Source: Verrucomicrobiia bacterium
Lineage (GTDB): Bacteria > Verrucomicrobiota > Verrucomicrobiia > Palsa-1439
DNA length: 64,000 nt
Assembly (NCBI GenBank): GCA_022072455.1
Contig: JAJVHY010000004.1
Span: 62,001-126,000 of the forward strand
Direction: 5' to 3'
Part shown: one piece after another, positions 3,890 through 63,572 of the stretch
How the letters are laid out: every line of letters starts with the position of its first letter
Numbering within the stretch: position 1 is the stretch's first letter
Program-made: the position numbers and the translations under genes
Notes under the pieces: generated by a model
Database searches by the model: none
What the model saw: the letters and a program-made list of their open reading frames with translations, nothing else
Told to the model about the DNA's origin: nothing

Positions 3890-5716
3890 TTATCCCTGCT
3901 TCTTTTCGATCTTGGACCAGGCATCCTTCAAGATGATCGTGCGGTTGAAGACGAGCTTGCCGGGTTTACTGTCGGCATCGAGCGCGAAGTAGCCTAACCG
4001 CTCAAACTGATACCGAAGTTCTGCTGTCGCGTCCTTCAGACTCGGCTCGCACTTACCGGTAACAACTTCGAGGCTGTGGGGGTTGAGGACGGTTTTGAAA
4101 TCGCGGCCGTCTTTTTCGGGCTCGGCTTCGGTGAAGAGCCGGTCGTAGAGGCGGACTTCGGCTTCGATGGCGTGTTGGGCGCTGACCCAGTGGATTGTGC
4201 CTTTGATCTTCCTGCCGGACGTGGCGCCACCGGTTTTGCTGTCGAGGTCGGCGGTGCAGCGGAGTTCGACGATCTTCCCGGAAGAATCTTTGATAACTTC
4301 GTCGCACTTGATGATGTAGGCGTATTTCAAGCGCACTTCGCCGCCGGGTTTTAGGCGGAAGAACTTCGGCGGCGGGACTTCGGCGAAATCGTCTTGCTCG
4401 ATGTAGAGTTCGCGGCTGAACGGCACCTTGCGCTTGCCTGTAGAAACGTCTTCGGGGTTATTGATGGCGTCGAGTTCTTCGAAGTGGTCGGCCGGCAGGT
4501 TGGTGATGACGACTTTCAACGGGTGTAACACTGCGAGCCGACGCAGGGCGCGTTTGTTCAGGTCTTCGCGGATGCAGTGCTCGAAGACGGCGATGTCGGT
4601 GACGCTGTTGTATTTGGTGACGCCGATGTTGTAGGCGAATTGACGGACGGCGCTGGCAGGGATGCCGCGGCGGCGTAGGCCGGAGATCGTCGGCAAGCGC
4701 GGGTCGTCCCAGCCGGCGACGACCTGGTCGTTGACGAGCTGGATGAGTTTGCGCTTGGAGACGATGGTGTACGTGGGGATGAGCTTGGCGAATTCGTACT
4801 GGTGCGGCAACGGGCGCGGGAGTTCGAGCGCGTTGAGAATCCAGTCGTAGAGCGGGCGGTGGACTTCGAATTCGAGCGTGCAGATGCTGTGGGTGATGCC
4901 TTCGATGTAGTCGCTGAGGCAATGGGCGAAGTCGTAAAGCGGATAGATGCACCATTTGTCGCCGGTCTGATGATGCGACGCGTGGCGGATCCGGTAAATC
5001 AACGGGTCGCGCAACCAGATGTTCGGCGAGGCCATGTCGATCTTGGCGCGAACGGTGCGCGCGCCATCCGGGAACTCGCCATTTTTCATGGCGACAAACA
5101 GCTTGAGGCTTTCTTCAATGGAACGGTCCCGGTATTTGCTGTTTTCGCCGGGCCGGTCGGGCGCGCCACGCATCTGGTCGACTTCGTCGGCGGTATGATC
5201 GCAGACATAGGCTTTGCCGCGCCGGATGAGTTCGATGGCGTAGGCGTAGAGCGCGTCGAAGTAATCGGAGGCGTAGAAGGGTTCTGTAGCCGCACCCTTT
5301 ACGGGTGCGTTCCCTGGCTGGCTCGCAGGCGTGAAGCCTGCGGCTACAACTGCCGGCTGATAGAAGTCGCCATCCTTCGTCTCAGGCACGGTCCCGGCAG
5401 CTTTGTAGCCGAGCCGGTCATCCGCCCAACCGGCGATGAGCCATTTTACGTCGGCGATGATGGACTCGACATACTCGATTTCTTCCTTGGTCGGGTTCGT
5501 GTCGTCGAAGCGCAGGTTACACCGGCCACCAAACTCGTGAGCGATGCCGAAGTTCAAGCAAATGGATTTGGCGTGACCGATGTGGAGGTAGCCGTTCGGC
5601 TCGGGCGGGAACCGGGTGACCGGCGATTTGTACTTACCGGATTCGAGGTCGGCTTTGACGATGTCGCGGATGAAATCGTTGGGGGCGGATGGCGGGGTGA
5701 CTGGTGCGTTCGACAT
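3890..5716 (-). CDS. glnS: Glutamine-tRNA ligase (GlnRS)
   Basis: The 608-residue class I synthetase charges tRNA-Gln with glutamine in the cytoplasm. It shows [20 protein letters not shown] with the HIGH motif near residue 47, FDDTNP, a VVSKRKL (KMSKS-equivalent) loop near residue 317, and the C-terminal anticodon-binding beta-barrels. It is about 50 residues longer than the E. coli enzyme. Much of the excess lies between WLIAGW and [12 protein letters not shown], where a 64-bp palindromic repeat (5285-5348) is translated as roughly residues 123-144. The reading frame is otherwise intact. The start at 5716 gives the normal short N-terminus. The 3' end is duplicated at 2681-3037. Confidence 0.96.
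5285..5348. repeat. Palindromic dispersed repeat inserted in frame in glnS
   Basis: Perfect 10-base terminal inverted repeats TGTAGCCGCA (5285-5294) and TGCGGCTACA (5339-5348) enclose a GC-rich core with a second small stem (CACCCTTTACGGGTG). The GTAGCCGCA...TGCGGCTAC family is a well-known class of intergenic repeat. Here it sits inside an essential gene and is translated as [20 protein letters not shown] on the minus strand. Confidence 0.85.
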
Positions 5717-5763
5717 GGCTTTGTCAGGTAGCAGTTTTGGTGGAAATGTTCACGTCAGAAAAG

Positions 5764-5793
5764 TGAAGGGGCACGGTGTGCCGTGCCCCTTCA
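5764..5793. terminator. 13-bp hairpin between the 5822-6130 gene and glnS
   Basis: TGAAGGGGCACGG (5764-5776) and CCGTGCCCCTTCA (5781-5793) form a perfect stem with a TGTG loop. It lies 28 bases downstream of the 5822-6130 stop and about 47 bases upstream of the glnS start. No uridine run follows on either strand, so it may be a repeat or mRNA-stabilising hairpin rather than a true intrinsic terminator. The adjacent 5791-5823 (ATCCGTGATAATCGGTGTGA...) resembles another widespread intergenic repeat. Confidence 0.5.
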
Positions 5794-5821
5794 TCCGTGA
5801 TAATCGGTGTGAATCTGTGGC

Positions 5822-6130
5822 TTAGGCCGCGGTCAAATCCTTCAGTTGGTTGTCGCGGACAGTAATCTCGGCGAACCGGTTTGGGTCGGCCATGCCGGTA
5901 TCAATGCGCGATTTGCGGGTGGCGTAGTTGCCGCGTTCGTCGGTCAAGACCTGCCACGGGTCGGTGGCGTCCTGTTTGGCGGCGGCGACCTTTTCGTTCA
6001 ACTCGGCGTTGATCATGCCGGCGTGTGAACCGAATTCGCTCGGAAATACCGGGCCCTTGGCCTTGCCGTCTTTCTTTTCGTCTTTCGCTTTGGGGCGTGC
6101 TGCGGTGACGCCTTTGGGTGCTGTTGCCAT
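5822..6130 (-). CDS. Small basic/charged protein of unknown function
   Basis: The protein has 102 residues. The N-terminal 30 residues are Lys/Ala-rich and probably disordered (KAKDEKKDGKAKG). A more ordered part follows with PSEFGSHAGMINAELNEKV, DPWQVLTDERGNYATRKSRI and NRFAEITVRDNQLKDL. A good Shine-Dalgarno (AGGAG, complement of 6141-6145) lies 10 bases before the ATG at 6130, which supports the gene. No signal peptide or known domain is recognised. It stands alone between the glnS hairpin and the insertion sequence. Confidence 0.65.
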   Translation of the reverse strand: MATAPKGVTAARPKAKDEKKDGKAKGPVFPSEFGSHAGMINAELNEKVAAAKQDATDPWQVLTDERGNYATRKSRIDTGMADPNRFAEITVRDNQLKDLTAA

Positions 6131-6196
6131 ATGTCATTTACTCCTGTTAAAGGGCGGCGAATCTACTCGCCCAGCAGGGCGAACGTCAAGCCCGCC

Positions 6197-6205
6197 CTCA
6201 CGCGG
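6197..6205. repeat. Left 9-bp target-site duplication CTCACGCGG
   Basis: CTCACGCGG directly precedes the left IS end and recurs at 7649-7657 directly after the right end. It is intact, so the insertion is fairly recent. Confidence 0.9.
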
Positions 6206-6296
6206 GGGTGCGACCAGAAGTGGCGGGCAGATATTTATCGGTGTAAGTAATTTAGCCCTGGCTCCTTGGAAGGGTTTTGTATATGTGGAGTGGTTC

Positions 6297-7627
6297 ATGA
6301 ATGATGAACTACCGAAATCAACGCAGCCCGCCACTCACCACCGTCCCTTGGAACAGCGTCTGGCGCATCGTCCCGAAGTGCTCGCGCGACTCCATCAACT
6401 GGCCGACACGCTCGATGAATCCGTGGGCGACGCTTGTACCGCCGACCAAGCCGAGGAGCGGGTGTGCCAGCAAGTGCGGCAACTGGCCCAGGAAGTCTTG
6501 ACGCAATGGGCGCAGGAAGCCAACGCCCACACCCAGTCCCAAGTGCCGACGCGCCACCCGACGGCCATTCGCCACGGTAAAAAAAACGCCTGACGTGGCA
6601 GACGATCTTTGGCTGGGTGAGCGTGACGGAAACCCACTGGCGGCTGGGGCGGCGTGGGGCGCTGCTGCGGCCTTTCTGCGAACGCGCGGGGGTGCGCCCG
6701 CGCGGCCGGTCGCGCCGATTGCAACGGGCGTTGGTGGACTTCGGGGCCGAGGAAAGTTTCACCCGCGCCGCCGCGCGCGTGCAGGAACACTACGGGCTGG
6801 ACGTGGCCGCCGAAGTGGTCCGCCAACATACGCTCACCCACGGCGCGCAGCTCAGCGCCTTGAGACTCCCGGCGCGCCAACCCGCGCCCCCGACGCTGGT
6901 CACGCAACTGGACGGGAGCATGATCCCCATCGTCGTGCCAGCCGCGACAGGAGCGGATCGTCGGCGCGGCAAACAACTGCTCTGGCGCGAGGCACGCCTG
7001 TGCCTGGCCCGCCCCAAAGATTCCGCCACGCCCTGTTACGGGGCCACCCTGGGCAGCGTCACCAGCAGCGGAGCAATGTGGCGTGACACCGCGCAAGCGG
7101 CGGGCTTTGATGCCGTCACCCAAGTGCATGGCGTGGGCGACGGGGCCGAGTGGATTCTCACCCAGTTTCAGGAACAGTTCGGCACCCAAGGCAAGTATCT
7201 GGTGGACTTCTACCACGTCAGCGAATATCTGGCGGCGGCCGCCGCCGTGATCCAGCCCCGCCAGCCGCAGCGCTGGCTACACCGCCAGCAAGACCGGCTG
7301 CTCCAAAACCGTGTGCCCGCCGTGTTACGCTCCCTGGCCGCCCACGTGGAGCCGGCGGCGGCGCCGGCCACTCCCGTCCGCACGGCGCACCGCTATTTGC
7401 AGCAGCGGCGCGCCCACCTCGATTACGCCGGCACGCGCGCCCAAGGGCTTAACATTGGTTCTGGAGAAATCGAAAGCGCCCATCGGCACGTGGTCCAACA
7501 GCGCCTCAAACTCGCCGGCAGTTGGTGGAAGGAGCCGAATGCGGAGGCGATGCTCGGCTTGCGAGTTGCCCGGGCCAACAACCTCTGGCAGCGTTACTGG
7601 CACCCCGCCCCATCCGCCCTCAACTGA
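6297..7627 (+). CDS. ISKra4-family transposase, expressed by -1 frameshifting
   Basis: The first frame (6297-6593) encodes a 98-residue helical N-terminal part ending RHGKKNA. The second frame, open from before 6617 to 7627, encodes the catalytic part. A run of eight A's at 6579-6586 followed by C gives the heptamer A-AAA-AAC in the correct register for a -1 slip, joining them into about 443 residues. The second part shows TLVTQLDGSMIPIV (first catalytic Asp region), YLVDFYHVSEYL (second) and GSGEIESAHRHVVQQRLK (third, with Glu), typical of this DDE family. With TIRs, TSD and both frames intact it is likely active. Confidence 0.88.
6579..6587 (+). promoter_or_regulatory. Programmed -1 ribosomal frameshift site A8C
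   Basis: Eight A's then C, read in frame 0 as AAA AAA AAC, contain the classical slippery heptamer A_AAA_AAC. The zero frame stops four bases later (TGA 6591-6593), whereas the -1 frame is open through the catalytic domain. A GC-rich sequence follows that could fold as a stimulator. A sequencing error is less likely because both frames end coherently. Confidence 0.75.
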
Positions 7628-7648
7628 CCGCCACTTCTGGTCGCACCC

Positions 7649-7657
7649 CTCACGCGG
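7649..7657. repeat. Right 9-bp target-site duplication CTCACGCGG
   Basis: It is identical to 6197-6205. Its complement supplies the stop codon of the Gfo/Idh gene (7650-7652). Confidence 0.9.
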
Positions 7658-8912
7658 CGGGAAATTCGATCACGCGGTTTTCGAGCCGGGCTTGTTCGGC
7701 GGCGAAAACCATGAGGTGTGATTCCAGCGTTTCGTCGGGGCCAGACAATATCTGGGTCGGGTCATTCGCGGCCACGGCGCGCACGAAACTGTCCATCAAC
7801 CCAAAGTCACCACCACCGTGACCACTCAGCAAGGACCCGTCAGCACTGGTCTCGGTGTCAATCTCGGTTGTCTTGTCGGTGAGAAAATCCGTGTGGTGAA
7901 TTTTGACGCCATCGCCTTCGAGCATGCCGCGGGTGCCGAAGAGGCGGGTTTGCCGGTGGCCGCCGGAATTGAAGGCGGTCATCGTAAAACTCGCGGTGCG
8001 GTTACCGGCGAAGAGGAGGTTGACGACTTGATGATCCACCACGTCATTGTCGCACTCGTAAACGCAGCGCCCGTAGGGGCCGCTGCGCAGGGCCGCTTCC
8101 AACGTGGCCGGCGTGGCGTTGGGCGCCACCACATCCACCGGCCAACCCGTCTGCCCCTGGGCGAGCCGGTTGCCGTAAATTTTCCGGGCCGAGTACGGAC
8201 ACTCGGGCTCGAAGGCGCAATCGAGGCAGCGCGTGGCCGGGCCGGCGGCGGCTGGCTTTTCGGCCTTGCGGAAATGTTTCAGCGCGCCAAACGAGGAAAC
8301 GGCCCGGCACGGCGCGTCAATCATGTACCGGAGCCAGTCGAGGTCATGACAGGATTTGGCCAAGAGCATGCAGGAGGATTCGGCGGTGTTGCGCCAGTTG
8401 CCGCGGACGAAGGAATGCGCTTGGTGCCAGTAGCCGACCGGTTCGAGGTGTTGCACGCTGACGATGTCCCCGATGGCGCCGGCCGTGAGCAGGGCTTTCA
8501 GCCGTTGCGAATACGCCGTGTACCGCATGACATGACAGACGGCCAACATGACGCGGTGGCGTTTGACGGCAGCGACAATGCGCCGGCAATCGGCGGCCGT
8601 CGGCGCCATCGGTTTTTCCAGCAGGATGTGGTACCCGAGTTGCGCGAAAGCTTCCACCGGCTCGACGTGCATCGCATCCTGCGTGGCGATGATGACGGCA
8701 TCCGCCAGTCGCGGTTGCCGGGCCGCCTCGCGCCAATCGCGAAAAACATGGGCTGCGGGAATGGCGTGCGTCTGTTCCAGCCGGTCGCGGAAAAAATCGC
8801 GCGGCTCGGCCACGCCCACAACTTGGACACGCGTCGGCTGCTCTTTGGCAAACCGACAATAGGTTGTTCCGCGCCCACCGGCGCCGATGCAGAGGATGGA
8901 GATAGGTTTCAT
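7650..8912 (-). CDS. Gfo/Idh/MocA-family NAD(P)-dependent oxidoreductase
   Basis: The protein has 420 residues when started at MKPISILCIGAGGRGTTYC; a longer in-frame start upstream adds sequence of no family character. It has an N-terminal Rossmann fold with GAGGRG, then VIIATQDAMH and the family motif EKPMAPTAADC (catalytic Lys). The C-terminal alpha/beta domain contains SCHDLDWLRYM and a Cys cluster (CLDCAFEPECPY) seen in one subgroup. Substrates of the family are usually sugars, inositols or their derivatives. It is the last gene of the long minus-strand run. The IS insertion meets it exactly at its stop codon without altering the protein. Confidence 0.92.
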   Translation of the reverse strand: MKPISILCIGAGGRGTTYCRFAKEQPTRVQVVGVAEPRDFFRDRLEQTHAIPAAHVFRDWREAARQPRLADAVIIATQDAMHVEPVEAFAQLGYHILLEKPMAPTAADCRRIVAAVKRHRVMLAVCHVMRYTAYSQRLKALLTAGAIGDIVSVQHLEPVGYWHQAHSFVRGNWRNTAESSCMLLAKSCHDLDWLRYMIDAPCRAVSSFGALKHFRKAEKPAAAGPATRCLDCAFEPECPYSARKIYGNRLAQGQTGWPVDVVAPNATPATLEAALRSGPYGRCVYECDNDVVDHQVVNLLFAGNRTASFTMTAFNSGGHRQTRLFGTRGMLEGDGVKIHHTDFLTDKTTEIDTETSADGSLLSGHGGGDFGLMDSFVRAVAANDPTQILSGPDETLESHLMVFAAEQARLENRVIEFPAA

Positions 8913-48886: not shown

Positions 48887-50695
48887 ATGTTGACCATCAC
48901 CGGCATTACCAAATCGTTTGGCGCGCGTGTGCTCTTTGAGGATGCATCGCTCCAGGTGCACCGTGGCGACCGCATCGGCCTCGTCGGCCCCAACGGCGCC
49001 GGCAAGTCCACGCTCTTCAATCTGGCGCTCGGGTACGACTGGCCGGACGAGGGCGAAGTCCGGCTCGAACGCAATGCGACCATTGGCCATCTGCCGCAGG
49101 AAACCGCCCCGGCCGGTGACGAGACTGTGCTGCAACTGGCGACCTCGATCCCGGAAGAAGCGGCGAATTACCTCGGCCACGAACTCGAACCGAAAGCCAA
49201 ACAGATTCTCGCCGGCTTGGCGTTTCGCGAACGTGATTTCGACCGCCCGGCCAAGGCGATGAGCGGCGGGTGGGTCATGCGCGCGTTTCTAGCCCGGCTG
49301 CTCGTCCAGCAACCCGATCTGTTGTTGCTCGACGAACCGACGAACCATCTCGACCTCGAATCGCTCCGCTGGTTTCAAGCTTATCTCAAGAGCTATCCCG
49401 GCGCCATCCTCCTCATCTCGCACGACCGGGAATTCCTCAACGAACTCGTCGGCAGCATTGTCGAGATCCGCCAAAGCCAGCTCCACCGGTATCGCGGCAA
49501 TTACGACAACTACCTTGTCCAGCGCGAGGCGAACGAAGCCCAGTTGCTGGCCGCGTACAAAAATCAGCAGAAGAAAATCGAGCAACTGCAAGAGTTCGCC
49601 GACCGCTTCCGCGCCAAGGCCAGCAAAGCCGCGCAAGCACAGTCGAAACTCAAACAGATCGAGCGCATGGACAAGATCGAAGCGCCGGTCAAGGAAGGTC
49701 GCGGCATCAAATTTCGTTTCCCGCAACCACCGCGCAGCGGCCAACGCGTCATCAAACTCGAAGACATTCATTACGCCTACGACACCACGGTGGTGTACGC
49801 CGGCATGGAGTTCGAAGCCGAACGCGGCCAACGGATCGTCCTCGTCGGCCCCAACGGTGCCGGCAAGTCCACCTTGCTGAAACTGCTGGCCGGCACCCTC
49901 GCGGTCCAAGGCGGCAGCCGCACGCTCGGGTTGAATGTGAAGGTTGGTTACTACGCGCAATACCGGGTGGAGATGTTGAAACCCGATCGCACCGTGCTCG
50001 AAGAAGCGCTCGACACGCCACAAAAAATCTCCTCCGAATCCGTCCGCACCGTACTCGGCTCATTTCTGTTTCGCGGCGATGACGTGTTCAAATCCGTCGG
50101 CGTCCTCAGCGGCGGCGAGAAAAGCCGGCTGGCGCTCGTGAAGTTACTCCTCGATCCGCCGAACCTGCTGTTGATGGACGAACCGACGACGCACCTCGAC
50201 ATGGCGAGCATTGATGCGCTGATCGGCGCGCTCAGTCAGTTCGAGGGCACGCTGATTTTCATCAGCCACGACGTCTATTTCATCCGGCAACTGGCGAAAC
50301 ACGTCTTGCACGTGGACAACGGCAAGCTCACGCATTACCACGGCGACTATCAGTACTACCTCGATAAATCCGCGACACTGACCCCGGTCGTACCGGTGCC
50401 CGTTGCGCCTCCAGTGCCAGCCAAGCCGCGGCCCCCGAAAGCCGCCCGGCAATCCCTCAATCATCAACGCCGCGAATTGCAGAAGACGGTCACAGCCCTC
50501 GAAACTGAAATCGCCCGACTGGAGAAGCAGCAGCAAGAACTCACCGCCGAACTGGAATTACCGGCGACGTATGAGAAGCCGGCGCGCGCGATGGAAGTAA
50601 ACCGCGAGTTGACCGGTGTCACCGAAGCGTTGGAGCGGACGGTGCCGGAGTGGGAAAAGGCCGCGGCGCAATTGGCGGAGTTACCGGCGGATTAG
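48887..50695 (+). CDS. ABC-F family ATPase (ribosome-associated, Uup/EttA-like)
   Basis: The protein has 602 residues with two nucleotide-binding domains and no membrane part: [16 protein letters not shown] with signature [14 protein letters not shown], and [17 protein letters not shown] with [15 protein letters not shown]. Walker B is [16 protein letters not shown] and [17 protein letters not shown] charged linker lies between the domains, and a C-terminal coiled coil ([20 protein letters not shown]) follows as in Uup. It is predicted to modulate translation or resolve stalled ribosomes. It converges with the RF-1-domain gene, overlapping its end by 4 bases. Confidence 0.94.
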
Positions 50696-51090
50696 TCCCA
50701 ACTGCTGGCGCGGCGGGATTCTTTCTTCGCGCTGTGCTTCGACTTGGCTTCGAGCATCCGCGCTTTGGCGCGGCGACTGCGTTTGCGTTTCTGCCGGCGG
50801 ATTTTTTCGCGTTCCGCGCGGTCGGCGGCGACAAATCCTCTTTGCCGGGCTTCGATCTTATCAACCAACAACCGGCGGGCGAGAAAACGATTCAGCGCTT
50901 GTTGCCGGGTTTCCTGACATTTGACCTGGATACCGGTCGGGCGATGCAAGAGCATCACGCAGGTTGAGACTTTGTTGACGTTCTGGCCGCCGTGACCGCC
51001 GGAACGCACGAACGACTCTTCGATGTCCGCCTCCCGCACGCCGAGCGCGGTCATTCGCTGGGTGAGTTGGAGTTGTTTGTCGGGGTTCAT
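50692..51090 (-). CDS. RF-1-domain peptidyl-tRNA hydrolase-like protein (ArfB type)
   Basis: The protein has 132 residues. It carries the catalytic GGQ loop ([20 protein letters not shown]), then the [20 protein letters not shown] segment and a strongly basic C-terminal tail ([18 protein letters not shown]). That layout of a small GGQ domain plus a basic tail is typical of ArfB/YaeJ rescue factors that release stalled ribosomes. The ATG overlaps the stop of the GreA-like gene by 4 bases. Confidence 0.9.
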
Positions 51091-52710: not shown

Positions 52711-53898
52711 TCAATTATCTGTCAGCGCGACGTAGAACAGCCAGTTGGCGAGCACCAGAATTCGATTCTTGCCGGGGCGCAAGGTGACTTGCACCCGGTC
52801 AGCGTCGGGGTGATAGCCGCGCAGTCCTTTGCATTCGTAAACCAATTCGCCGTTGAGCCAGACGGCGAAGCCAGTCGCGCCGCCAAGATGGAGAGTGACA
52901 TTCTTCTCGGCGGCGGCGGTGACGGTTGCCAAGGAAAATGAAGCGGTTGTGGTTGACGCCGCGCCGGGACGACCGGGGGCGATGTTCTGGCCCATCGGCA
53001 TGATCCCGCCGCGCAAGACCCAGCTTTCCTGCCACCAACTGGTGGTGGCGGCTTCTGTTTCGCGGTCATACTTCCGCCAGCCGGCCTGGAGCGGGTCGAA
53101 ATCGGCGGGGATCGCCGGCAACGGCGGGTACGGCGAGCCAACTTTCCAGGGAACGGGTGGCGCGATGTACCACTCCGTGAGCATGTGGCGTTCAAGCGGC
53201 ACCTGTTCGAGCATGGGCGCGGAACAACCGAGCGCATCAAGGACCGCGCGGCCCATGACGCGCCAGCCGTTCTTGGTGTGATGGACGCCGTCGGGCCCCC
53301 AGAGAATATTGGCGTACTTCGCCGCGTCCGCGGGCGCGACTTTTCGCTCGGAGACTGCCGTCTGTTCGGCGGCGGAGGCCGCGCGGGTGCCCGCGGCAAA
53401 CTTGGCGTGCAAATCCACCAGGACGCAGTCGTGCGCCTTGGCCAATTCGCGCAACGCTTCGCCATACGCCACGACGCGCGCGTCACGGGTCGGGTCTTTG
53501 GGGTCGTTGATGCCGGGCGGAATGAGCAGCAACATTTTCGCGCCGCTCTGCCGGACTTGTTTGACCAACTCGCCGACTTCACGTTGATAGTCTTCGACCG
53601 GGCCGCGATCGTTGGTGCCGATGTTCAGGATCACGAGGTCGGGCTTGCGGTCGAGGACGTCGTGGGTGAAGCGCGCTTTCAGTTTCGCCACGTTATCGCC
53701 GGCAATGCCGGCATCTTGTTTGACGACGTCGGGGTAACCGTTGGCCCGGAGGGTCTCGATGACCCAGTCGGTCCAGGCGGATGCGTCGGTCAGGCTGTCG
53801 CCGACAAAACTGATCCGGCGCACGCCCTTCATGATTTCGGCCGCTGATACATTCATGGCGAGAAGCCCCACGAGTAAGATTGCCGCGGTTTTTTTCAT
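52711..53898 (-). CDS. Secreted SGNH/GDSL hydrolase with a C-terminal beta domain
   Basis: The protein has 395 residues. A signal peptide (MKKTAAILLVGLLAMNVSAA) precedes the SGNH blocks: GDSLTDASAW (catalytic Ser), AGIAGDNVAKL (Gly), NIGTNDRG (Asn) and DGVHHTKNG (Asp/His). After residue ~270 an all-beta domain follows (LHLGGATGFAVWLNGELVYE), of the type appended to esterases acting on polysaccharides. It overlaps the upstream gene by 4 bases, so it belongs to the secreted-carbohydrate operon. It is likely a carbohydrate esterase; the substrate is unknown. Confidence 0.9.
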   Translation of the reverse strand: MKKTAAILLVGLLAMNVSAAEIMKGVRRISFVGDSLTDASAWTDWVIETLRANGYPDVVKQDAGIAGDNVAKLKARFTHDVLDRKPDLVILNIGTNDRGPVEDYQREVGELVKQVRQSGAKMLLLIPPGINDPKDPTRDARVVAYGEALRELAKAHDCVLVDLHAKFAAGTRAASAAEQTAVSERKVAPADAAKYANILWGPDGVHHTKNGWRVMGRAVLDALGCSAPMLEQVPLERHMLTEWYIAPPVPWKVGSPYPPLPAIPADFDPLQAGWRKYDRETEAATTSWWQESWVLRGGIMPMGQNIAPGRPGAASTTTASFSLATVTAAAEKNVTLHLGGATGFAVWLNGELVYECKGLRGYHPDADRVQVTLRPGKNRILVLANWLFYVALTDN

Positions 53899-56126
53899 CG
53901 GATGATCATCCAGTCAAACATCGCGTCGGCCGGCGCCGGCTTTTCGAACTTCACGGTGAAGCCCTGCGCCTGCTTGTTCACAATCGCGCGTTGGCCGATC
54001 CAGTTTTGTTCAATGAACACGGCGTACTGCGCGTCGGCTTCTGCGGTCGCGAATTTCACTTGGAATTCCTGCGCGCCGGCTGGGATGGCGATGTTCATGC
54101 CGCGGAGATTCCGCGCGGGTTTGTCGCCGCCGGAAAGGCCGCCCGTCGTCACGAGACCACCGGAGAAGTTGAAGTCGCCAGTCGCCCGCGAAACCGTCAG
54201 CGACGCGACGCGATCCGGCTGATTGGTTTCCGTACCGTAATGCCATTTGATTGGCTGTTCGCGATTGTTGGGTTGCATGAACAAGATGGCAGAGTTCGCG
54301 ACATCGCACGCAAACTTGATGGCGTTGTTGGCGGTGCTATCCAAGGTGATCATTTCGTTCCATGGCGCTTGCTGGTCGTACCGATTTTCCAAATCTTTTG
54401 TCAAGCTGCCGCGCGTGCCACCGCGAATGTGTAACGCGGTCTGGCGCTGGACGTGGCCGTTGTTGGACACGTCGAAGACCGGCGCGGGGAACGCCCCGGG
54501 AATCGCGTCCCACATCCATGCCCGGAATGGAATCGGTTTGAACGGGTCAGAGCCGATGGCTTGTTCGACCCGGTCACCAGGCGCGAAATCCGCCGCGGTG
54601 CCGGTAAACGGTCCCGGCACGACTTTGAGCGTGGTGGCGGGATGGTTGACGGCTTTGGACACGTCGTAGACGTTGGCGCCGGGCGCGATCACGTACCGGA
54701 GTGGTTTGACGTGGCCATCGTAGGTGGCATTGGCCGGTTTGTAGAGGGTTGGCGAGCCGGCGGATTTTGCGCCCCACCAATGTCGGATGATGGTGATGTC
54801 TTTGGTGCCGTCGGCGTTGTTCGTGAGACTGTCAATCAAGAACCAGCGGCGGATCGGAGCGGCGGGGCCACTGGGTGGGACGTACTCACTCGGGTCATCC
54901 ACCGCGAAGTACCGGCCGACGACTTCGTCGGTGATCGGGGCGGCGGCAGAAAAACGGATCAGGCCGCCCATGCGGAGGACTTTGTTGTTGAGTTTGTTTT
55001 TGGTCAGGGTCGTCGGGTAAGTCTTGCCCTGATAGACCTTCTCGACCAGGTTCGGACTCATGTAGTCAATCCACGACGCCGGCTGGCAGATCACGACGGT
55101 CCCGTTGGTGATCCACTTGGCGGGATTCAGATTGATGAGCGGCCGGCCCGTGCCGAGTGTGGCGCTCACTGTGGGTTTGAACTTGAGGTCATGAGTTCCA
55201 CTGTCCCAGGAAGTCACTTCGCCGCGGAAAATGTTGAGCAGCGGTTCGACAAACGCCGCGTACAACACGCCGTTCTCATCGCCGGCGGTTGAATGCACGT
55301 CGCCCATGTATTTGAAGCGGGCATCGAACAAATAATTGTCCCCCTGCGAATAGTTGTACCGCCACATCCGCACGTCGAACGTCTGATTTTCGTTGTGCGA
55401 GGTCGTCTGCATGTCGAGCACGTTGACGTGATTTTTGTTACCCATGATCGTGCCCTTGGGCTGGCCGTGCTCGGTGTCGGCAACGAAGTACCACATCCCC
55501 TTCTCCTTGTCGTACCCGACGGATTTGACGAAGAGCCGCTCGACGGTGCCGTATTCGCCGATGCTCATGAACATGCCGGGGAAAATGCCGCGAATCGTTG
55601 CGACATAGAATTTCGAGTCCTTGCCGGCGGGGGCCGCTTCCTGCAACCAGTCCCGGTAACTGGTCGAGCCGTGGAGAACGGTGTTGCGCAGTTTCAGCAT
55701 CGGAAAGTAGTCCCAGAAGGGCAGGCTTTGTTCGCCACTCAAATCCAGCTTGCGATTCATTTCCATCCCGGTCACTTGCGCGGGATTGACCTTCAAGGTG
55801 CCACCGCGGGCGTCGACCACAGTCACCCCGGCTTTCTTGCCCCAACTTTTGGCGGGGGCGGGCACTTCGGGGATGCGAAAGATGGATTGGGGTGAGGCGG
55901 GTGGATTCCAAGAGGGAGGCGTGTTGGCCGGGATGATGAGCACGCCACCGCCGGCAGCCAGAATATCAGCCGTCGCTTTCGCGAACGTCTCTTTCGGCGT
56001 GGTGACCGGACCAAATTGATCCAGCGAATAAATGGGGCCACCGCCAAACGGCGCGACATTCGTTTGCGCGGAACCTGCCAGACACCATGCCAGTAAACCG
56101 ATGGCCGTCACGACAACTGTTTTCAT
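53895..56126 (-). CDS. Large secreted protein of unknown function, copy B
   Basis: The protein has 743 residues. The signal peptide is followed by FAKATADILAAGGGVLIIPA, a pectate-lyase-3/beta-helix-like start. The body has many Trp/Tyr blocks (DENGVLYAAFVEPLLNIFRG; INLNPAKWITNGTVVICQPA; ITIIRHWWGAKSAG). A compact C-terminal region ends EKPAPADAMFDWMIIR, resembling H-type lectin or tail-fibre tips. It is a close paralogue of the 58286-60535 product; over the last 42 residues 30 are identical. A catalytic motif is not recognised. It lies between the SGNH hydrolase and the sialate O-acetylesterase. Confidence 0.75.
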   Translation of the reverse strand: MKTVVVTAIGLLAWCLAGSAQTNVAPFGGGPIYSLDQFGPVTTPKETFAKATADILAAGGGVLIIPANTPPSWNPPASPQSIFRIPEVPAPAKSWGKKAGVTVVDARGGTLKVNPAQVTGMEMNRKLDLSGEQSLPFWDYFPMLKLRNTVLHGSTSYRDWLQEAAPAGKDSKFYVATIRGIFPGMFMSIGEYGTVERLFVKSVGYDKEKGMWYFVADTEHGQPKGTIMGNKNHVNVLDMQTTSHNENQTFDVRMWRYNYSQGDNYLFDARFKYMGDVHSTAGDENGVLYAAFVEPLLNIFRGEVTSWDSGTHDLKFKPTVSATLGTGRPLINLNPAKWITNGTVVICQPASWIDYMSPNLVEKVYQGKTYPTTLTKNKLNNKVLRMGGLIRFSAAAPITDEVVGRYFAVDDPSEYVPPSGPAAPIRRWFLIDSLTNNADGTKDITIIRHWWGAKSAGSPTLYKPANATYDGHVKPLRYVIAPGANVYDVSKAVNHPATTLKVVPGPFTGTAADFAPGDRVEQAIGSDPFKPIPFRAWMWDAIPGAFPAPVFDVSNNGHVQRQTALHIRGGTRGSLTKDLENRYDQQAPWNEMITLDSTANNAIKFACDVANSAILFMQPNNREQPIKWHYGTETNQPDRVASLTVSRATGDFNFSGGLVTTGGLSGGDKPARNLRGMNIAIPAGAQEFQVKFATAEADAQYAVFIEQNWIGQRAIVNKQAQGFTVKFEKPAPADAMFDWMIIR

Positions 56127-56141
56127 AGCAGACTCTCCTGG

Positions 56142-58277
56142 TTACTTTGGCACCCAGCCCGTGGGGAGGATGAGCGCGTCGTCCTCCGGGTTCACGAGCT
56201 GTGTGTTGTCCCACCTGTCGGTGTTGAACTGAAAAACCGGGAGCTTTTCCGCGTTGTAAACGTTGCAGACCGGGTTGCTCGCGTAGCCGTAACGCACCGC
56301 GACCGGTTGAGGAACTTTGGCGGACCAGACGACGACAGTTTCACCCTCAATCTTCGCGTTGGCGAAATAGAACTTCCGGTCGGCGCCGGCAATCGCGAAA
56401 CCGACCGGTGGGTCACCGGCGGAATGCAGGCCCTGCGCAAAATCAAAATGCAGGCGGATCTTGTCGCCTGCGGTGGTCATCTTCTTGTAGAGCGGCCCGT
56501 AGTACAGCCGGTCTTTCTTGCCATAGACCGTCGCCAACGCGGGCAGTGCCAGCCGGCGTCCGACTTCCTGTTTGTTCCGGGGATGAATGTCCGCGCCCTC
56601 CCCCACCCCGACTGCCGAAGCGATGAAGGTGTTGGTCAACTGCAGTGCGAGCATTTGCGATTCGCGGATGAGATGATAGCCGCTGATCCGTTCCACGGCC
56701 TTGGTCTGTTGCGCTTGATAATCGGCGAGTTGAACGATGCCAAAATGGAAATCGCCCTGGCCCCACTCCTTGCGCCACGAGGTGATCAGCCCCGGCAGCA
56801 GCGTCCGGTAATCCACATAGAACGGCGCGTTGGCTTCGCCTTGATACCAGATCGCACCGCGAATGCCGTAGGGAATCACCGGCGCAATCTGGCCGTTGTA
56901 TTGCGCGCCGGGATGCCCGTAGTAGTAGCCCGGCGGTTTGTCCAACAGCGGCGCCGGCCGGGGTTGCCGGCCGGGGTCAAGGTCTTGGGCTTTGGCCATC
57001 CGCCACACCCCGGTCAGCGAGACCGACGCCTCCGATAATGTCAGCGTCATATTGGTGGCCGGCCCGAAAAATGCCATCGGATACGCCAACTTCAACACGC
57101 GCACGGCCACGGTTACGTTGGTCGAAGTGACCGCGGCCGTCGGGACCGGGTACACGCGCGATACGCTCCAGTAACTCGCCACATCGAACCACGTGCGGCC
57201 GACCCGCGTTCCGTTGACGTACGTTTCATCCGCGCCGTCAATGATCCCCAGTTTCAATTCCAGCTCCTTGCCGGTCCAGTCGGCCGGGACCGCGATTTCC
57301 TTGCGGAACCAGACGGAAGCCACCGGCGCGCCGATGGGGTTATCCGCCGGCGTGACCGGCAACGTGATGGGCTGCCATTGCGTCGTGTCGAAGGCCGGGG
57401 CCATCCATTGATTTTTCAGGCCGGGATCTTCGGCATCAAGTTGCGCAAACCACGCCCTGTTCCTTTCAGGCAGCCGCGCTTGTTGGGCCGCGAGAGCTTG
57501 CGGAAAACTATTGGTGTCAGCCAGAAACGCTTTCACCAATTCATCGTAAGCTTCCGCCCGTTCCCGGTAGGTGGGAATGGCTTTGAGTCCTTCCACGCTG
57601 GTCCACGCTTCGATCGCCGAGGCACCATACGACGACATGATCAGGCCGATGGGAACCTTCAATTCCCGGTGCAGATCACGGGCGAAGAAATACGCCACGC
57701 CGGACCAGTTCGCCGCGGCATCTGGTGTGCACGCGCTCCATTGGCTCACGCATTTCTCCTGCGGCGTCAGCGCGTAGCGTTGCGTCTGGGTGGTCGGCTC
57801 AATGAGATACCCCTGATCCTTGGCCGACGCGGCGAACACTACCGTGCCGCGGATCATCGGGTAATTTGCGGCGGCGACTTCCGCCGCGGCCTCGCGAACT
57901 TTGCGGAGTTCCCACGCCATGTTGGACTGCCCGCTGCACAGCCAGACTTCGCCGACGAGCACATCCTTGAACACCGTCGGTGCCCCGCTCCCGGTCACGG
58001 TCAACTCCTGCGGTGTGGCGTTGGCCGGCAACGCCGCGAGAGCGACTTTCCACTTACCGGCGGCGTCGGCTTTTGTGCTGACCTTTTGCCCGGCAAACTC
58101 CACGGTGACGGACTCACCCGGGGAGGCCCGCCCCCAGACCGGAACCGGCTGGTCACGCTGCAAGACCATGCTGTTGCCAAAAATCGGGGCAACAGTCACC
58201 GCCGCGTGGGCCGGCACCGCGACGGTGAGCAATAACCCGACACCCGTTACCAGACCCGCTAGCCGGTGGCCAATCAT
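56142..58277 (-). CDS. Sialate O-acetylesterase-like secreted esterase
   Basis: The protein has 711 residues with a signal peptide. The N-terminal beta domain shows FGNSMVLQRDQPVPVWGRAS, the canonical family start. The SGNH-like esterase has the catalytic motif GQSNMAWEL near residue 117, RDLHRELKVPIGLIMSSYGA, AIEAWTS, an inserted jelly-roll, WYQGEANAPFYVDYRTLLPG and the DIHPRNKQEVGRRL Asp/His pair. Family members remove acetyl groups from sialic acid or plant xylan. It sits 15 bases after the 58286 gene and 15 before the 53895 gene, so the operon is tight. Confidence 0.93.
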   Translation of the reverse strand: MIGHRLAGLVTGVGLLLTVAVPAHAAVTVAPIFGNSMVLQRDQPVPVWGRASPGESVTVEFAGQKVSTKADAAGKWKVALAALPANATPQELTVTGSGAPTVFKDVLVGEVWLCSGQSNMAWELRKVREAAAEVAAANYPMIRGTVVFAASAKDQGYLIEPTTQTQRYALTPQEKCVSQWSACTPDAAANWSGVAYFFARDLHRELKVPIGLIMSSYGASAIEAWTSVEGLKAIPTYRERAEAYDELVKAFLADTNSFPQALAAQQARLPERNRAWFAQLDAEDPGLKNQWMAPAFDTTQWQPITLPVTPADNPIGAPVASVWFRKEIAVPADWTGKELELKLGIIDGADETYVNGTRVGRTWFDVASYWSVSRVYPVPTAAVTSTNVTVAVRVLKLAYPMAFFGPATNMTLTLSEASVSLTGVWRMAKAQDLDPGRQPRPAPLLDKPPGYYYGHPGAQYNGQIAPVIPYGIRGAIWYQGEANAPFYVDYRTLLPGLITSWRKEWGQGDFHFGIVQLADYQAQQTKAVERISGYHLIRESQMLALQLTNTFIASAVGVGEGADIHPRNKQEVGRRLALPALATVYGKKDRLYYGPLYKKMTTAGDKIRLHFDFAQGLHSAGDPPVGFAIAGADRKFYFANAKIEGETVVVWSAKVPQPVAVRYGYASNPVCNVYNAEKLPVFQFNTDRWDNTQLVNPEDDALILPTGWVPK

Positions 58278-58285
58278 GACAGGCC

Positions 58286-60535
58286 TCAGCGAACGATGAA
58301 CCAGTCAATCTTCGCGTTGGCCGGGGCCGGTTTTTCAAACTCCACCGTGAACCCAGTCGCTTCCTTCTTCACGATGGCGCGATTCCCAATCCACGATTGT
58401 TCGATGAATACACCGTACGCGTCGTCCGCTTCCGCGACCGGGAATTTGACGGGGAACTTCGTTTCGCCGGCTTTGACAGCGACGTTCAGGCCGCGCAGAT
58501 TGCGCGCCGGCTTGTCGCCGCCGGAGAGACCGGCTCCGGTGACGAGGCCACCGGTGAAGTTGAAGTCGCCGGTCTCCCGCGAGACAGTCAACGCCGCGAC
58601 TTTCGGCAACTGATTGGTTTCGCCGTAGTACCACTTGATTGGTTGGACGCGGCTGTTCGGTTGCGTGAAGAGAATCGCCGCATCGCCGGTATCCGCGCCG
58701 AACCGCAAACCGATGTTGCAGGTGCTGTCGAAGCTGATCAGCTTGTCCCACGCCGGGTTTTCGTCGAACTTCGTGGTCGTGTCGCGGACGATGCTGCCGG
58801 AGCCACCGCGGACTTGCATCAAGTATTCGCGCATGACCTGGCCGTTGTTGCCGATGTCAAACACCGGGGCGGGAAACGCGCCGGGAACCGCATCCCACAT
58901 CCAGGTGCGGAACGAGATCGGCTTGAACGGGTCGGGGCCGATGGCTTGTTCGACGGGGTCGTTCGGGGCGAAGTCGAGCTTTGTGCCGGCAAACGGGAAC
59001 GGGGAGAGTTTGACTGTGCGCCGCGGGTCTTTGACACCCATCGAAACATCATACACGTTCACGCCCGGCGCGATGACGTACCGGAGCGGCACTTCATGGC
59101 CATCGCGCGTGGCGTTGCTTTTCTTGTAGAGCATCGGCGCGCCGGCGCTCTTCGCGCCCCACCAATGCCGGACGATGGTGATGTCCTTGGTGCCGTCGGC
59201 GTTCTTGGTCACACTGTCAATCAAGTACCACCGGCGGAGATTGACGCCACCAAACTGACCGCCGGGCACGTATTCGCTCGGGCTATCCACGGCGAAGTAT
59301 TGTCCGATCACTTCGTCGGTGATTGGCGCATCCGCGGAAAACCGAATCAAGCCGCCCATGCGCAAGACCGTCAAACCAACATGGTTCGTGACGAGCGTTG
59401 TCGGATAGCTCTTCCCCTTGTAGACCGGGTTTTCGATCATCGAAGTGTAATCCGTCCACGACGCCGGTTGAACAATCACGACGGTGCCGTTCGTGGTCCA
59501 CTTGGCGGGGTTGAGGTTGATGAGCGGCCGGCCACTGCCGAGCGTCGCGCCGTCAGAACCTTTATAGACGAGTTGACTGGTGGCCGGATCCCATTTTTCC
59601 ACCTGGCCGCGGAAGATGTTGAGCAACGGTTCGATGAACGCCGCGTAGAGGACGCCGTTCTCGTCGCCCGCCGTGGAATGGACGTCGCTCATGTACTTGA
59701 ACCGGGCGTCAAACAAATACGTGTCGCCCTGGGAGTATTTATACCGCCACATCCGCACATCGAATGTCTGGTTTTCGGTGTGGGACGAGGATTCCAAGCT
59801 GAGGAGATTGGTGTGATGCTTGTTGCTCATGATCGCGCCTTTCTGCACGTCAACATTGGTATCGGCAACGAAGTACCACATCTTCTTCTCCTTATCGAAG
59901 CCGAGTGACTTGATACAGAGCCGCGGCACCGGCCCGCCCCACGCCAGGGCGTTCAGGAACATGCCCGGAAAAATACCGCGAATGGTCGCCACGTAGAACC
60001 GGCGGTCTTTGCCGGCGGGCACCGCTTCCTGCAGCCAATCATGATAACTGCCGGAACCGCGAAGCGTGGTGTTTTTGATGGTGAGGATCGGATGATAATC
60101 CCAGTGCAACAAACTGTCGCCCGGCGGCAAGTCCAATACGCGCTCGAACTCCATGCCTTTGATTTGGGGTGTCAGAAATTTCAACGTCGGCCCCCGGCCA
60201 TCAATCACCGTGACCTGCGGCCCGGTATACCACCGCCCCGTGGTCTGCTCCGGCGCGGGCGGCACGCGCAACGATTGTTGAATGTTATTCTTGGGACGCC
60301 ACGCTGGCGGGGCTTGTGGCGGGATCAGAATCACTCCCCCACCAGCGGCCAGTATCGCATCCGCAGCTTTCCGATAAGTACTCTCCGCTTCCGCAGCCGT
60401 GCCGATTGGACCGAATTGGTCCAGCGAGAAGAACGAACCCAACCCACCTGCCGGGAGGTTGGTTTGCGCAACTACCGCCAAATTGGAAACCAATAAACCA
60501 ACCACGCCAGCCAAGAGACATTTGATTTTCAGCAT
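58286..60535 (-). CDS. Large secreted protein of unknown function, copy A
   Basis: The protein has 749 residues and is the first gene of the operon. Signal peptide, then ADAILAAGGGVILIPPQAPP, a long body aligned throughout with the second copy (DARFKYMSDVHSTAGDENGV; INLNPAKWTTNGTVVIVQPA; ITIVRHWWGAKSAGAPMLYK), and a C-terminus ending EKPAPANAKIDWFIVR. The family is not one I can name; the N-terminus suggests a beta-helix and the C-terminus a lectin or fibre tip. It is likely exported to the periplasm or surface and acts on a polysaccharide, inferred from the esterases around it. Confidence 0.75.
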   Translation of the reverse strand: MLKIKCLLAGVVGLLVSNLAVVAQTNLPAGGLGSFFSLDQFGPIGTAAEAESTYRKAADAILAAGGGVILIPPQAPPAWRPKNNIQQSLRVPPAPEQTTGRWYTGPQVTVIDGRGPTLKFLTPQIKGMEFERVLDLPPGDSLLHWDYHPILTIKNTTLRGSGSYHDWLQEAVPAGKDRRFYVATIRGIFPGMFLNALAWGGPVPRLCIKSLGFDKEKKMWYFVADTNVDVQKGAIMSNKHHTNLLSLESSSHTENQTFDVRMWRYKYSQGDTYLFDARFKYMSDVHSTAGDENGVLYAAFIEPLLNIFRGQVEKWDPATSQLVYKGSDGATLGSGRPLINLNPAKWTTNGTVVIVQPASWTDYTSMIENPVYKGKSYPTTLVTNHVGLTVLRMGGLIRFSADAPITDEVIGQYFAVDSPSEYVPGGQFGGVNLRRWYLIDSVTKNADGTKDITIVRHWWGAKSAGAPMLYKKSNATRDGHEVPLRYVIAPGVNVYDVSMGVKDPRRTVKLSPFPFAGTKLDFAPNDPVEQAIGPDPFKPISFRTWMWDAVPGAFPAPVFDIGNNGQVMREYLMQVRGGSGSIVRDTTTKFDENPAWDKLISFDSTCNIGLRFGADTGDAAILFTQPNSRVQPIKWYYGETNQLPKVAALTVSRETGDFNFTGGLVTGAGLSGGDKPARNLRGLNVAVKAGETKFPVKFPVAEADDAYGVFIEQSWIGNRAIVKKEATGFTVEFEKPAPANAKIDWFIVR

Positions 60536-60615: not shown

Positions 60616-60682
60616 CTGTATTATATTTTTACAATCTGACGTGACGCTTTGCAGACCGCCCCCACTCCGGTATTATGGCGAC

Positions 60683-61033
60683 GTGAAATGGCTTTCCATT
60701 TTGACCGGGCTCCTGCTTGTCGGCTGCGCCCAACCCAATTCCAAAGACACACCGCCCTCACCGGCCTTTCGCGTCCTCGGCGAAAACGTGACCATCGAAC
60801 CGGCCCGCTCCGATGAATCAATTGGCTGGGAAGTCCGCGCACGGCTGGACCGGACCGGCGCAACCGAATTGGCCGGCGTGATCGTGCAAATTGAAGACGG
60901 GATTGTGACGTTGCGCGGGAGCGCGCCGAACCGTCAGGCAACCTGGCGCGCGGAAGGCGCGGCGCGCGCCGTTCCGGGCGTGAAGAAAGTCATCAACGCG
61001 ATTCAACTCACTACGCCCGGCTCTGGCTACTGA
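60683..61033 (+). CDS. BON-domain lipoprotein
   Basis: The protein has 116 residues from a GTG (VKWLSILTGLLLVGCAQPNS); the cleavage site is LLVGC, a good lipobox, which makes the GTG the better start than the ATG at 60641. The mature part carries a BON domain (RARLDRTGATELAGVIVQIE; IVTLRGSAPNRQATWRAEGA; ARAVPGVKKVINAIQL), a putative phospholipid/envelope-binding fold. It is divergent from the secreted-carbohydrate operon and converges with the Ser/Thr kinase, overlapping its end by 7 bases. Confidence 0.88.
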   Translation: MKWLSILTGLLLVGCAQPNSKDTPPSPAFRVLGENVTIEPARSDESIGWEVRARLDRTGATELAGVIVQIEDGIVTLRGSAPNRQATWRAEGAARAVPGVKKVINAIQLTTPGSGY

Positions 61034-63492
61034 CCGAGCGCCGCGTCCAAATCCGCCTGAATCGCCGGATCCGCTTTCACCGCTTGCGCGGCAGCGGCGG
61101 CGGGATTCAGATTGTAAAACCTGGCAAAAACCGCCAGCGCGCCATACCGGCGAGCGAGGAGCGGGGGTCTTTCCGTGGCGGTGAACGCCTGCGCGTAAGC
61201 TTCGCCGAGTTTATAGAGCGTGGCCGGCGGAAGGTCGCGCCACTCGGCCTGCATTTCGCCGTAGGGCAGTTGGAAAATCAATTGTGTCTCCGTCGCACGC
61301 ACCAGTTGGCCGGTCACTTTCACGCCGGGGCGGGTGACCAGTTTCGTGGCGTCGTAGGGCCGGGCGCGGAAATCGGCGGTCAGTTGGGTTTTGAATTCTT
61401 GCAGCCAGCGCACCGCCGCGCGCCGGTGTTCGAGGGCTTGCCGGCCGGCGGCGGTTTCCAAGGTGCCGCCCAAGGCTTCGTATTTTGCCGCGGCACCTTT
61501 GAAATCGTAGAGCGCCAGGGCCGGGGCCAGTGTTGGCTCGACCGCATTGACGCGCGCGACTTCAGCCGCGGCTTGTTGCCGGGCCTGTTCTTCGGCGGCT
61601 TGTTGCTGGGCTAATTCGGCTTGTTTGGCGGCGGCGATTTTTTCGGCCGCGGCGGTTTGGGCGGCGAGAATGACCGGCTCGCGCTCGTCGAGTTGCGCTT
61701 TGAATGCAGCCAACCGGGTTTTGGCGCGGGTATCGCGAAGCAGCTTGAGCGCGGCGTCAAACTGGCCGGCCCCGCGGAGCCGCTCCAGTTCCGCCAAGGT
61801 CGCCGGGATGCCTTCGACTTCCTGGGTGAGTTTGCCGGCCAAGCCGCGAAGGGTCAGGACCCACGGTTGCGCCGGGTCACCGGGAAGTTTCTGCAATTCA
61901 CTCCAAGTGGCCCGGGCCGCGTCGAATTGGCCGGCATCGTATTCTTTGAGGCCGATCAGCCATTGGGTGAACGCCGCCGCCCAAGCCGGGAACTTGGGCA
62001 ACCCGGCTTGAAGTTCGCGCGCCGGCAATGCGCCTTGCATGAATTGCGCGAGCGGTCCGACCAGACTGGTCGGAGTCACGGTCGCCGGGAGCTGGGGCAG
62101 GCCACCAACTTGGTTGAAACTCGGGGCCGCTTCCGCCGTCCGCCCGGCGGCAACCAGCGTGACGCCCTGCATGAAGAACGCCCATTGCCGGTGATGGGGC
62201 CGTTGCCGGGTGAGTTGTTTCAGGTTTTCGCACTCGTTGAGCGCCGCCTGATATTGTTGTTGGGCAAGTGCCACGACGAGGTTGCTCCAGGTTTTGGTCC
62301 ACGGGGCGTCCTCGGTGAAATCCACTTCGTCAACCACGGCGGCCGGCGGCGCCGGTAGGTTTGTCGTTTGGGCCACCGGCGGAGGCGGTTTAGGGGCCGG
62401 GGCGGGCGGGCCGAAGCCGAGTTTGTCGCGATTGAACCACAACACGACGAGCGCGACCAAACACGCCAAGACAATGCCCCAGGTGAGCAACGCGCTTTTG
62501 ACGGTGACTTGTTCGCCGGTCTCGGTGACGACGACCGGTTCGTCTTTGCGTTCGCGGAGCCGGCGTTCGGCGGTTTCGAGTTCGTGGATGAGTGCGTCGT
62601 AGGATTGGTACCGGTCCGCCGGGCCTTTGGCGAGTGTGCGGCCGATGACGTGGGCGGTGTAATCTTGGAGAGTCGGGTTGAAGGTTTTGAGGTTGAGGGC
62701 CGGGGTGTTGGTGTGTTTGGTGACGACTTCGCTCGCGGTTTTGGCGTCGAACGGCGGCCGCCCGGCGAGGGCGTGGAAGAGCGTGGCGCCGAGCGAATAC
62801 ATGTCGCTGCGGAAATCTTCCGGTTGGCCGCGGAGTTTTTCGGGCGCAATATAATATGGTGTGCCCCAGATGACACCGCTGCCGTCGTTGGCGGTTTCGT
62901 GTTGGGCAAGGGCGAGACCGAAATCCACGAGTTTGGGCTGGCCTTCTTCGTTGAAGAGGATGTTGCCGGGCTTGATGTCGCGGTGGAGGAGATTGCTTTG
63001 GTGCGCGGCGCGGAGCCCGCCGGCAATGGCAATGCCGATTTTGAGAACTTCGCCCTCGGGGAGTTTGTGTTTTTTGGTGATGCGCTCGTCGAGGCTGCCG
63101 CGTTCGAGCAGTTCCATCGTCAGGTAGTATTCGCCCTCGTGTTCGGCAAACGCGTAGACCTGCGCGACGTGAGGATGATTAACAGCGGCGGCGGCGCGGG
63201 CTTCACGGGCGAAGATTTCAATGAAGTGCGGGTCGCTGGCGAACTTATTGCGGAGGATCTTGACGGCGACGTAACGGTTAAGCTGGGTGTCAATGGCCTT
63301 GTAAACGGTACCCATGCCGCCGACGCCAAGGGCATTGAGGAGCAGCAGATTGCCAAACTGGGCGGGCACGACGGAAAGCGCGCCGCATTGAGCGCATTGC
63401 ACTTCCGTGAACGCTTGCTGCCCCGTCAAATCGAGCGGCGTATTGCAGCCGTGGCAATTGATGGAGTCGGGAACAACACCGGGGACATCCAT
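61027..63492 (-). CDS. Membrane Ser/Thr protein kinase with N-terminal zinc ribbon
   Basis: The protein has 821 residues from MDVPGVVPDSINCHGCNTPL. A zinc ribbon (CHGC...CAQC) comes first. The kinase domain has LGVGGMGTVYKAID, VAVKIL (Lys), LLHRDIKPGNILFNEEGQ and VDFGLAL. One transmembrane helix (TWGIVLACLVALVVLWF) lies near residue 345. The extracytoplasmic part is a Pro-rich linker and TPR-like or coiled-coil repeats (AAEKIAAAKQAELAQQQAAE). This fusion is frequent in PVC bacteria. It is divergent from the LDH2-family gene by 80 bases. Confidence 0.93.
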   Translation of the reverse strand: MDVPGVVPDSINCHGCNTPLDLTGQQAFTEVQCAQCGALSVVPAQFGNLLLLNALGVGGMGTVYKAIDTQLNRYVAVKILRNKFASDPHFIEIFAREARAAAAVNHPHVAQVYAFAEHEGEYYLTMELLERGSLDERITKKHKLPEGEVLKIGIAIAGGLRAAHQSNLLHRDIKPGNILFNEEGQPKLVDFGLALAQHETANDGSGVIWGTPYYIAPEKLRGQPEDFRSDMYSLGATLFHALAGRPPFDAKTASEVVTKHTNTPALNLKTFNPTLQDYTAHVIGRTLAKGPADRYQSYDALIHELETAERRLRERKDEPVVVTETGEQVTVKSALLTWGIVLACLVALVVLWFNRDKLGFGPPAPAPKPPPPVAQTTNLPAPPAAVVDEVDFTEDAPWTKTWSNLVVALAQQQYQAALNECENLKQLTRQRPHHRQWAFFMQGVTLVAAGRTAEAAPSFNQVGGLPQLPATVTPTSLVGPLAQFMQGALPARELQAGLPKFPAWAAAFTQWLIGLKEYDAGQFDAARATWSELQKLPGDPAQPWVLTLRGLAGKLTQEVEGIPATLAELERLRGAGQFDAALKLLRDTRAKTRLAAFKAQLDEREPVILAAQTAAAEKIAAAKQAELAQQQAAEEQARQQAAAEVARVNAVEPTLAPALALYDFKGAAAKYEALGGTLETAAGRQALEHRRAAVRWLQEFKTQLTADFRARPYDATKLVTRPGVKVTGQLVRATETQLIFQLPYGEMQAEWRDLPPATLYKLGEAYAQAFTATERPPLLARRYGALAVFARFYNLNPAAAAAQAVKADPAIQADLDAALGQ

Positions 63493-63572
63493 GCCTGCGA
63501 CCGTAGCATGAGATGGCGGGCGGCGGCAAGTTGTCGCTGTTTTATTGGGGCAGTCTTTGGTAAACAACCGGC

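Follow-up and report, generated by a model that had tools for sequence, protein, structure and literature searches.

What do two similar proteins of no named family do when their genes alternate with those of two esterases? The question is raised by four genes of the window (the whole stretch of DNA that was analysed, 64,000 nucleotides):

58286..60535, minus strand: P0002, first twin of the operon, 749 aa, with a signal-peptide-like N-terminus
56142..58277, minus strand: P0003, predicted CE20-type carbohydrate esterase with an inserted beta-sandwich domain, 711 aa
53895..56126, minus strand: P0001, second twin, 743 aa, with a signal-peptide-like N-terminus
52711..53898, minus strand: P0004, predicted GDSL/SGNH esterase, 395 aa, overlapping P0001 by 4 bp

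The ORFs are intact and co-directional, with the minus-strand order P0002, P0003, P0001, P0004, and an SD-like sequence, AGAAAGGAA, lies just 5’ of P0002. Gaps of 8 bp (P0002/P0003) and 15 bp (P0003/P0001) are followed by a 4-bp ATGA overlap of P0001 and P0004, and because of this spacing the four genes are read as a single transcription unit. A preliminary description of this DNA had proposed a tight four-gene operon with alternating esterases at 53895-60535; order and spacing bear this out, but the SGNH gene lies just outside that interval. On inspection, all four products (4/4) carry Sec signal-peptide-like N-termini and look like exported proteins. Directly upstream of the operon, a large ORF (window 61027-63567, minus strand) looks on inspection like a Ser/Thr protein kinase gene; a small ORF of divergent orientation (60641-61033, plus strand) separates the two. 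A short minus-strand ORF at 50692-51090 reads, also on inspection, like a peptide-release-factor-type (GGQ) protein.

The esterase genes were the easier pair to classify. P0003 matched SASA (PF03629) in Pfam at E 2.2e-14 and aligned end to end with the CE20 esterase Fl8CE20_II (9h4u, E 9.7e-110), the alignment continuing across the inserted beta-sandwich, in which Pfam marks a GH2-N-like stretch at 302-362. The putative catalytic residues Ser118 (in GQSNM) and Asp563 and His565 (in DIH) are present, and their counterparts in Fl8CE20_II are S112, D513 and H515 (PMC12313940). P0003 resembles the CE20 esterases in having an SGNH domain with the GQSNM serine and the DxH motif, and an ancillary beta-sandwich inserted in that domain; we consider it CE20-like and predict that it is a de-O-acetylase. 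P0004 matched PF13472 at E 4.2e-23 (83 bits against a Pfam cut-off of 33) and, like other GDSL/SGNH esterases, carries all four SGNH blocks (S35, G67, N96 and D203/H206); unlike them, it has an additional C-terminal part of ~170 residues.

The twins had been described as exported-looking paralogues of ~745 residues, and this was confirmed: at 749 and 743 aa, both with signal-peptide-like N-termini on inspection, P0002 and P0001 share 63% identity from end to end. Single-sequence searches with either protein gave no match in Pfam, NCBIfam or the sequences of the PDB. A 12-member family alignment had zero Pfam matches, nine more distant members had chance-level Pfam matches only, and NCBIfam across 49 members returned just scattered matches, each in single members. 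Profile searches against the PDB produced weak matches only, a single-sequence search of PHROGs gave one weak tail-fibre match for P0001, and nothing on the family was found in the literature. The earlier statement that the twins belong to no recognised family stands for Pfam, NCBIfam and PDB sequences, but both ends of the proteins show remote domain relationships. Neither relationship places the twins in a characterised enzyme family.

Fifty full-length members were aligned, five copies of the family being present in this genome, and 89 columns are conserved at 90% or more in the 48 non-twin sequences. Chance is excluded as the source of the family by these 50 members and 89 columns. In the GTDB contig collection, 11 further genomes carry relatives; their labels are Planctomycetota, Verrucomicrobiota, PVC group and Armatimonadota. 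The family was detected in 11/388 sampled genomes of the window’s phylum, which its relatives suggest is Verrucomicrobiota (including this genome and one marginal match), in 4/392 genomes around genome G420 (two of them seed genomes, and one holding the remote relative L128) and in 9/151 genomes around genome G425 (seed included); these counts are lower bounds, as some searches scored few candidates per genome. Its distribution across Verrucomicrobiota, Planctomycetota and Armatimonadota is patchy. A family that is conserved in three bacterial phyla and has no Pfam or NCBIfam model will be missed by genome surveys of carbohydrate use.

The firmest result of the analysis is a tailspike-like domain at the C-terminus of the twins:

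53898..54140, minus strand: C-terminal tailspike/K1-lyase_C-like domain of P0001, residues ~663-743

The tail fibre family PHROG 3484 was matched by 14 of 44 members (best E 1.9e-4), and other PHROG families by at most one member each. When a profile of residues ~510-743 was searched against the PDB, the sole match at E up to 10 was 7EEA, the cyanophage tailspike of Pseudanabaena phage Pam1 (E 0.011); comparing the family C-terminus directly to the Pam1 tailspike gave E 0.001. A direct match to K1-lyase_C (PF24146) was absent in 44 members (Pfam, E up to 1), and homology to this domain was traced through intermediates, from the family alignment A2 (49 of the 50 full-length sequences) to L128 and from L128 to PF24146 and Pam1. 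L128 (4996-6585 of its locus, minus strand) is a bacterial protein, from Planctomycetota, of tailspike-like architecture that bridges the twins’ C-terminus and phage tailspikes; it contains PF12708, Beta_helix and a sub-threshold K1-lyase_C match (E 0.0024). Its last 83 residues matched the A2 profile with a probability of 97 (E 1.8e-10), and the negative controls P0003 and P0004 gave probabilities of 0.3 or less. Searched against 50,697 phage records, the C-terminal end of L128 had one match, the Pam1 tailspike, which itself scores above the PF24146 cut-off (E 2.9e-7). A Foldseek search of viral structures with the first AlphaFold model returned several matches of 70-78 columns (probability 1.00, rmsd 1.8-3.3 A) to phage tail, structural or uncharacterised proteins; these are read as matches of the C-terminal domain because residues 671-743 are the confident part of the model. 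The likeness to Pam1-type tailspikes spans the C-terminal ~85 residues and can be aligned to the very end. Unlike those tailspikes, the twins are bacterial and chromosomal, start with signal-peptide-like segments, have no Pfam domain of their own, and cannot be aligned with them over the remaining chain.

The other end, and the best conserved part of the middle, are represented by two further features:

55917..56033, minus strand: N-terminal beta-helix-cap-like segment of P0001, residues 32-70
55269..55301, minus strand: best conserved motif of P0001, DVHSTAGDENG, residues 276-286

Residues ~32-70 (L..FG...A...GGGVL.IP) were compared by hhalign with a PF12708-type profile of 27 sequences (L128 and 26 drawn from the genomes of relatives) and scored 38.3 (P 8.6e-5); 40 shuffles per side reached at most 20.3 and eight unrelated real alignments at most 22.9. 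PDB profile matches on the same segment, to a GH110 (E 0.18) and an exo-polygalacturonase (E 0.91), were not significant. The segment shares the cap pattern FG...A...GGG.L.IP with pectate-lyase-type beta-helix proteins (PF12708, Pect-lyase_RHGA_epim), a suggestive resemblance that, unlike in true PF12708 proteins, lies below Pfam detection and ends after ~38 columns. Neither twin, nor the 12-member alignment, scored above the Pfam gathering cut-off of PF12708. Between the two ends lie residues ~70-640, ~70% of the protein, which have no fold or family match. The AlphaFold models of the twins, built from alignments of 12 and 13 sequences, have low pLDDT values of 53.2 and 57.1, and a PDB fold search with the second, low-confidence model found no beta-helix enzyme and is uninformative. 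Remote homology and structure prediction, which had been suggested as a check, placed both ends, but the middle came out at low pLDDT and without a PDB fold match. Conservation is highest in the middle, at residues 251-300, where the twins are 88-96% identical. D283 and E284 are identical in 50/50 sequences, and D206, D263, R328, R427 and R448 are, with these two, near-invariant across the middle. The DVHSTAGDENG motif is the probable functional centre of the twins.

Genes around other family members were surveyed in relatives. P0004-type genes (E 1e-20 or better) were found in 7/31 family-positive genomes and in 1/241 sampled genomes of the phylum, that one being this genome; the taxonomic composition of the two sets differs, and scoring in the larger set stopped at seven candidates per genome. 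Family-positive genomes carry a P0004-type esterase more often, an association between sets of unlike make-up. A strong P0004-type gene lies near a family gene only in the window, at L044 (a paralogue in this genome), L007, L009 and L010, and a P0003-type gene only in the window, at L044 and at L105. The survey for carbohydrate enzymes in relatives, also suggested earlier, brought out the P0004 association, but most family loci have neither esterase nearby, and a general linkage of the family to both esterases was rejected. The genes immediately next to family genes are of many kinds, among them DUF1559, GDSL, Gfo/Idh and GH38. At L044 the order is family gene, SGNH gene (4-bp overlap), Gfo/Idh gene (GH109-like) and SASA gene.

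Several further observations were made at these loci. L-fucose isomerase and FGGY kinase genes (L044, 5821-9008) lie on the other side of the L044 family gene, and homologues of both (L017, 5106-8334) lie beside the family gene of L017, in a different genome; a fucose-containing substrate is a lead that these genes provide. DUF1559/N-methylation pseudopilin-like ORFs recur near family genes (L042, L043, L048 and L053-L058), which may reflect mere abundance in such genomes. Proteins with a heparinase II/III-like C-terminal domain are encoded near family genes at L010 (18480-20429) and L045 (7963-9903), in the latter case directly downstream. On contig C244 of genome G422 (55629-56693; L165, L171 and L179), a P0004-type esterase near a family gene is in pieces, with an internal TAA, and represents either a broken gene or an assembly error.

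The twins represent a real, unnamed family of exported-looking proteins with tailspike-like ends, which most likely act on acetylated polysaccharide together with two esterases. We give an even chance to a reading in which the four genes make up a single operon that deals with O-acetylated polysaccharide outside the cytoplasm, by means of tailspike-like beta-helix twins and two esterases. The body of each twin would take the form of a tailspike-like beta-helix, which would bind the glycan around the invariant GDENG motif and probably cleave it there, and the C-terminal domain would trimerise the protein or bind glycan. P0003 and P0004 would deacetylate the chain, which could then be handled. 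That the substrate contains L-fucose is a lead only. A more specific proposal is that the twins are a new CAZy-type family of extracellular tailspike-like lyases or hydrolases, working in pairs, possibly as mixed-trimer depolymerases with matched deacetylases; this we regard as tentative and on the doubtful side. The earlier suggestion of a new polysaccharide-active group gains indirect support from the beta-helix-like and tailspike-like ends and from the P0004-type esterase being commoner in family-positive genomes. Polysaccharide-active twins would be a new family and not a new kind of biology. If enzymatic, they would bring a family with a tailspike-type end into the repertoire by which bacteria handle polysaccharides; acetylated glycans, perhaps containing fucose, would be the substrates suggested by the partner esterases.

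The same ends are open to other readings. The twins might be non-catalytic surface proteins, either tailspike-like adhesins or glycan-binding scaffolds that tether the cell or the esterases to polysaccharide, since their firmest homology is to the tailspike C-terminal domain, which is non-catalytic, and they match no catalytic family in Pfam or NCBIfam. However, the near-invariant acidic, basic and aromatic residues of the middle exceed, in our judgement, what a binding surface usually needs, and we think this role rather unlikely. The cap alone need not mean degradation either, as PF12708 is described as rhamnogalacturonase A/epimerase. The operon could in that case modify the cell’s own exopolysaccharide, with the twins as epimerase-like or trimming beta-helix proteins and the esterases tuning acetylation during export. 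We consider this quite improbable: glycosyltransferase and polysaccharide export genes are absent both beside the operon, where the ORFs were read, and among the recurrent neighbours in relatives, whereas catabolic genes (fucose isomerase, GH38) are present near family genes. The tailspike-like domain would also be expected if the twins were left over from phage or belonged to a phage-tail-like particle. Such an origin is very hard to credit and was rejected, given the signal-peptide-like N-termini, the fifty bacterial full-length members with five copies in this genome, and the lack of any relative in the IMG/VR, plasmid and phage collections (50,697 phage records).

If the twins are tailspike-like beta-helix proteins acting on polysaccharide, why would the operon keep two? 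P0001 and P0002 are each other’s closest relatives in the tree (support 95/98); their terminal branches measure 0.34 and 0.32 changes per site. Each deviates at one of the 89 conserved columns (A77 in P0001, Q405 in P0002), and divergence between them is greatest at residues 76-100 (20% identity) and 576-600 (32%). This pattern favours a shared chemistry with differing specificity: the twins may apply one chemistry to differently decorated stretches of the substrate. The preliminary idea of different substrates fits sister duplicates that have both kept the conserved core; the heteromeric complex proposed alongside it is conjectural. In the tree, the partners of this genome’s other copies come from other genomes, in some cases of a different phylum, a placement consistent with lateral transfer or with ancient paralogy followed by losses. 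Paired family copies also occur elsewhere, adjacent to one another at L105 and L115 and spaced apart at L010 and L049. At L010 the copies enclose a Gfo/Idh gene and an ORF that includes SGNH sequence; they are not sisters in the tree, so pairing arose more than once. The ORF between these two copies (3911-7795, plus strand) overlaps a family gene by 4 bp and contains, in a single reading frame, FG-GAP repeats, an F5/8 type C-like stretch and a partial SGNH domain.
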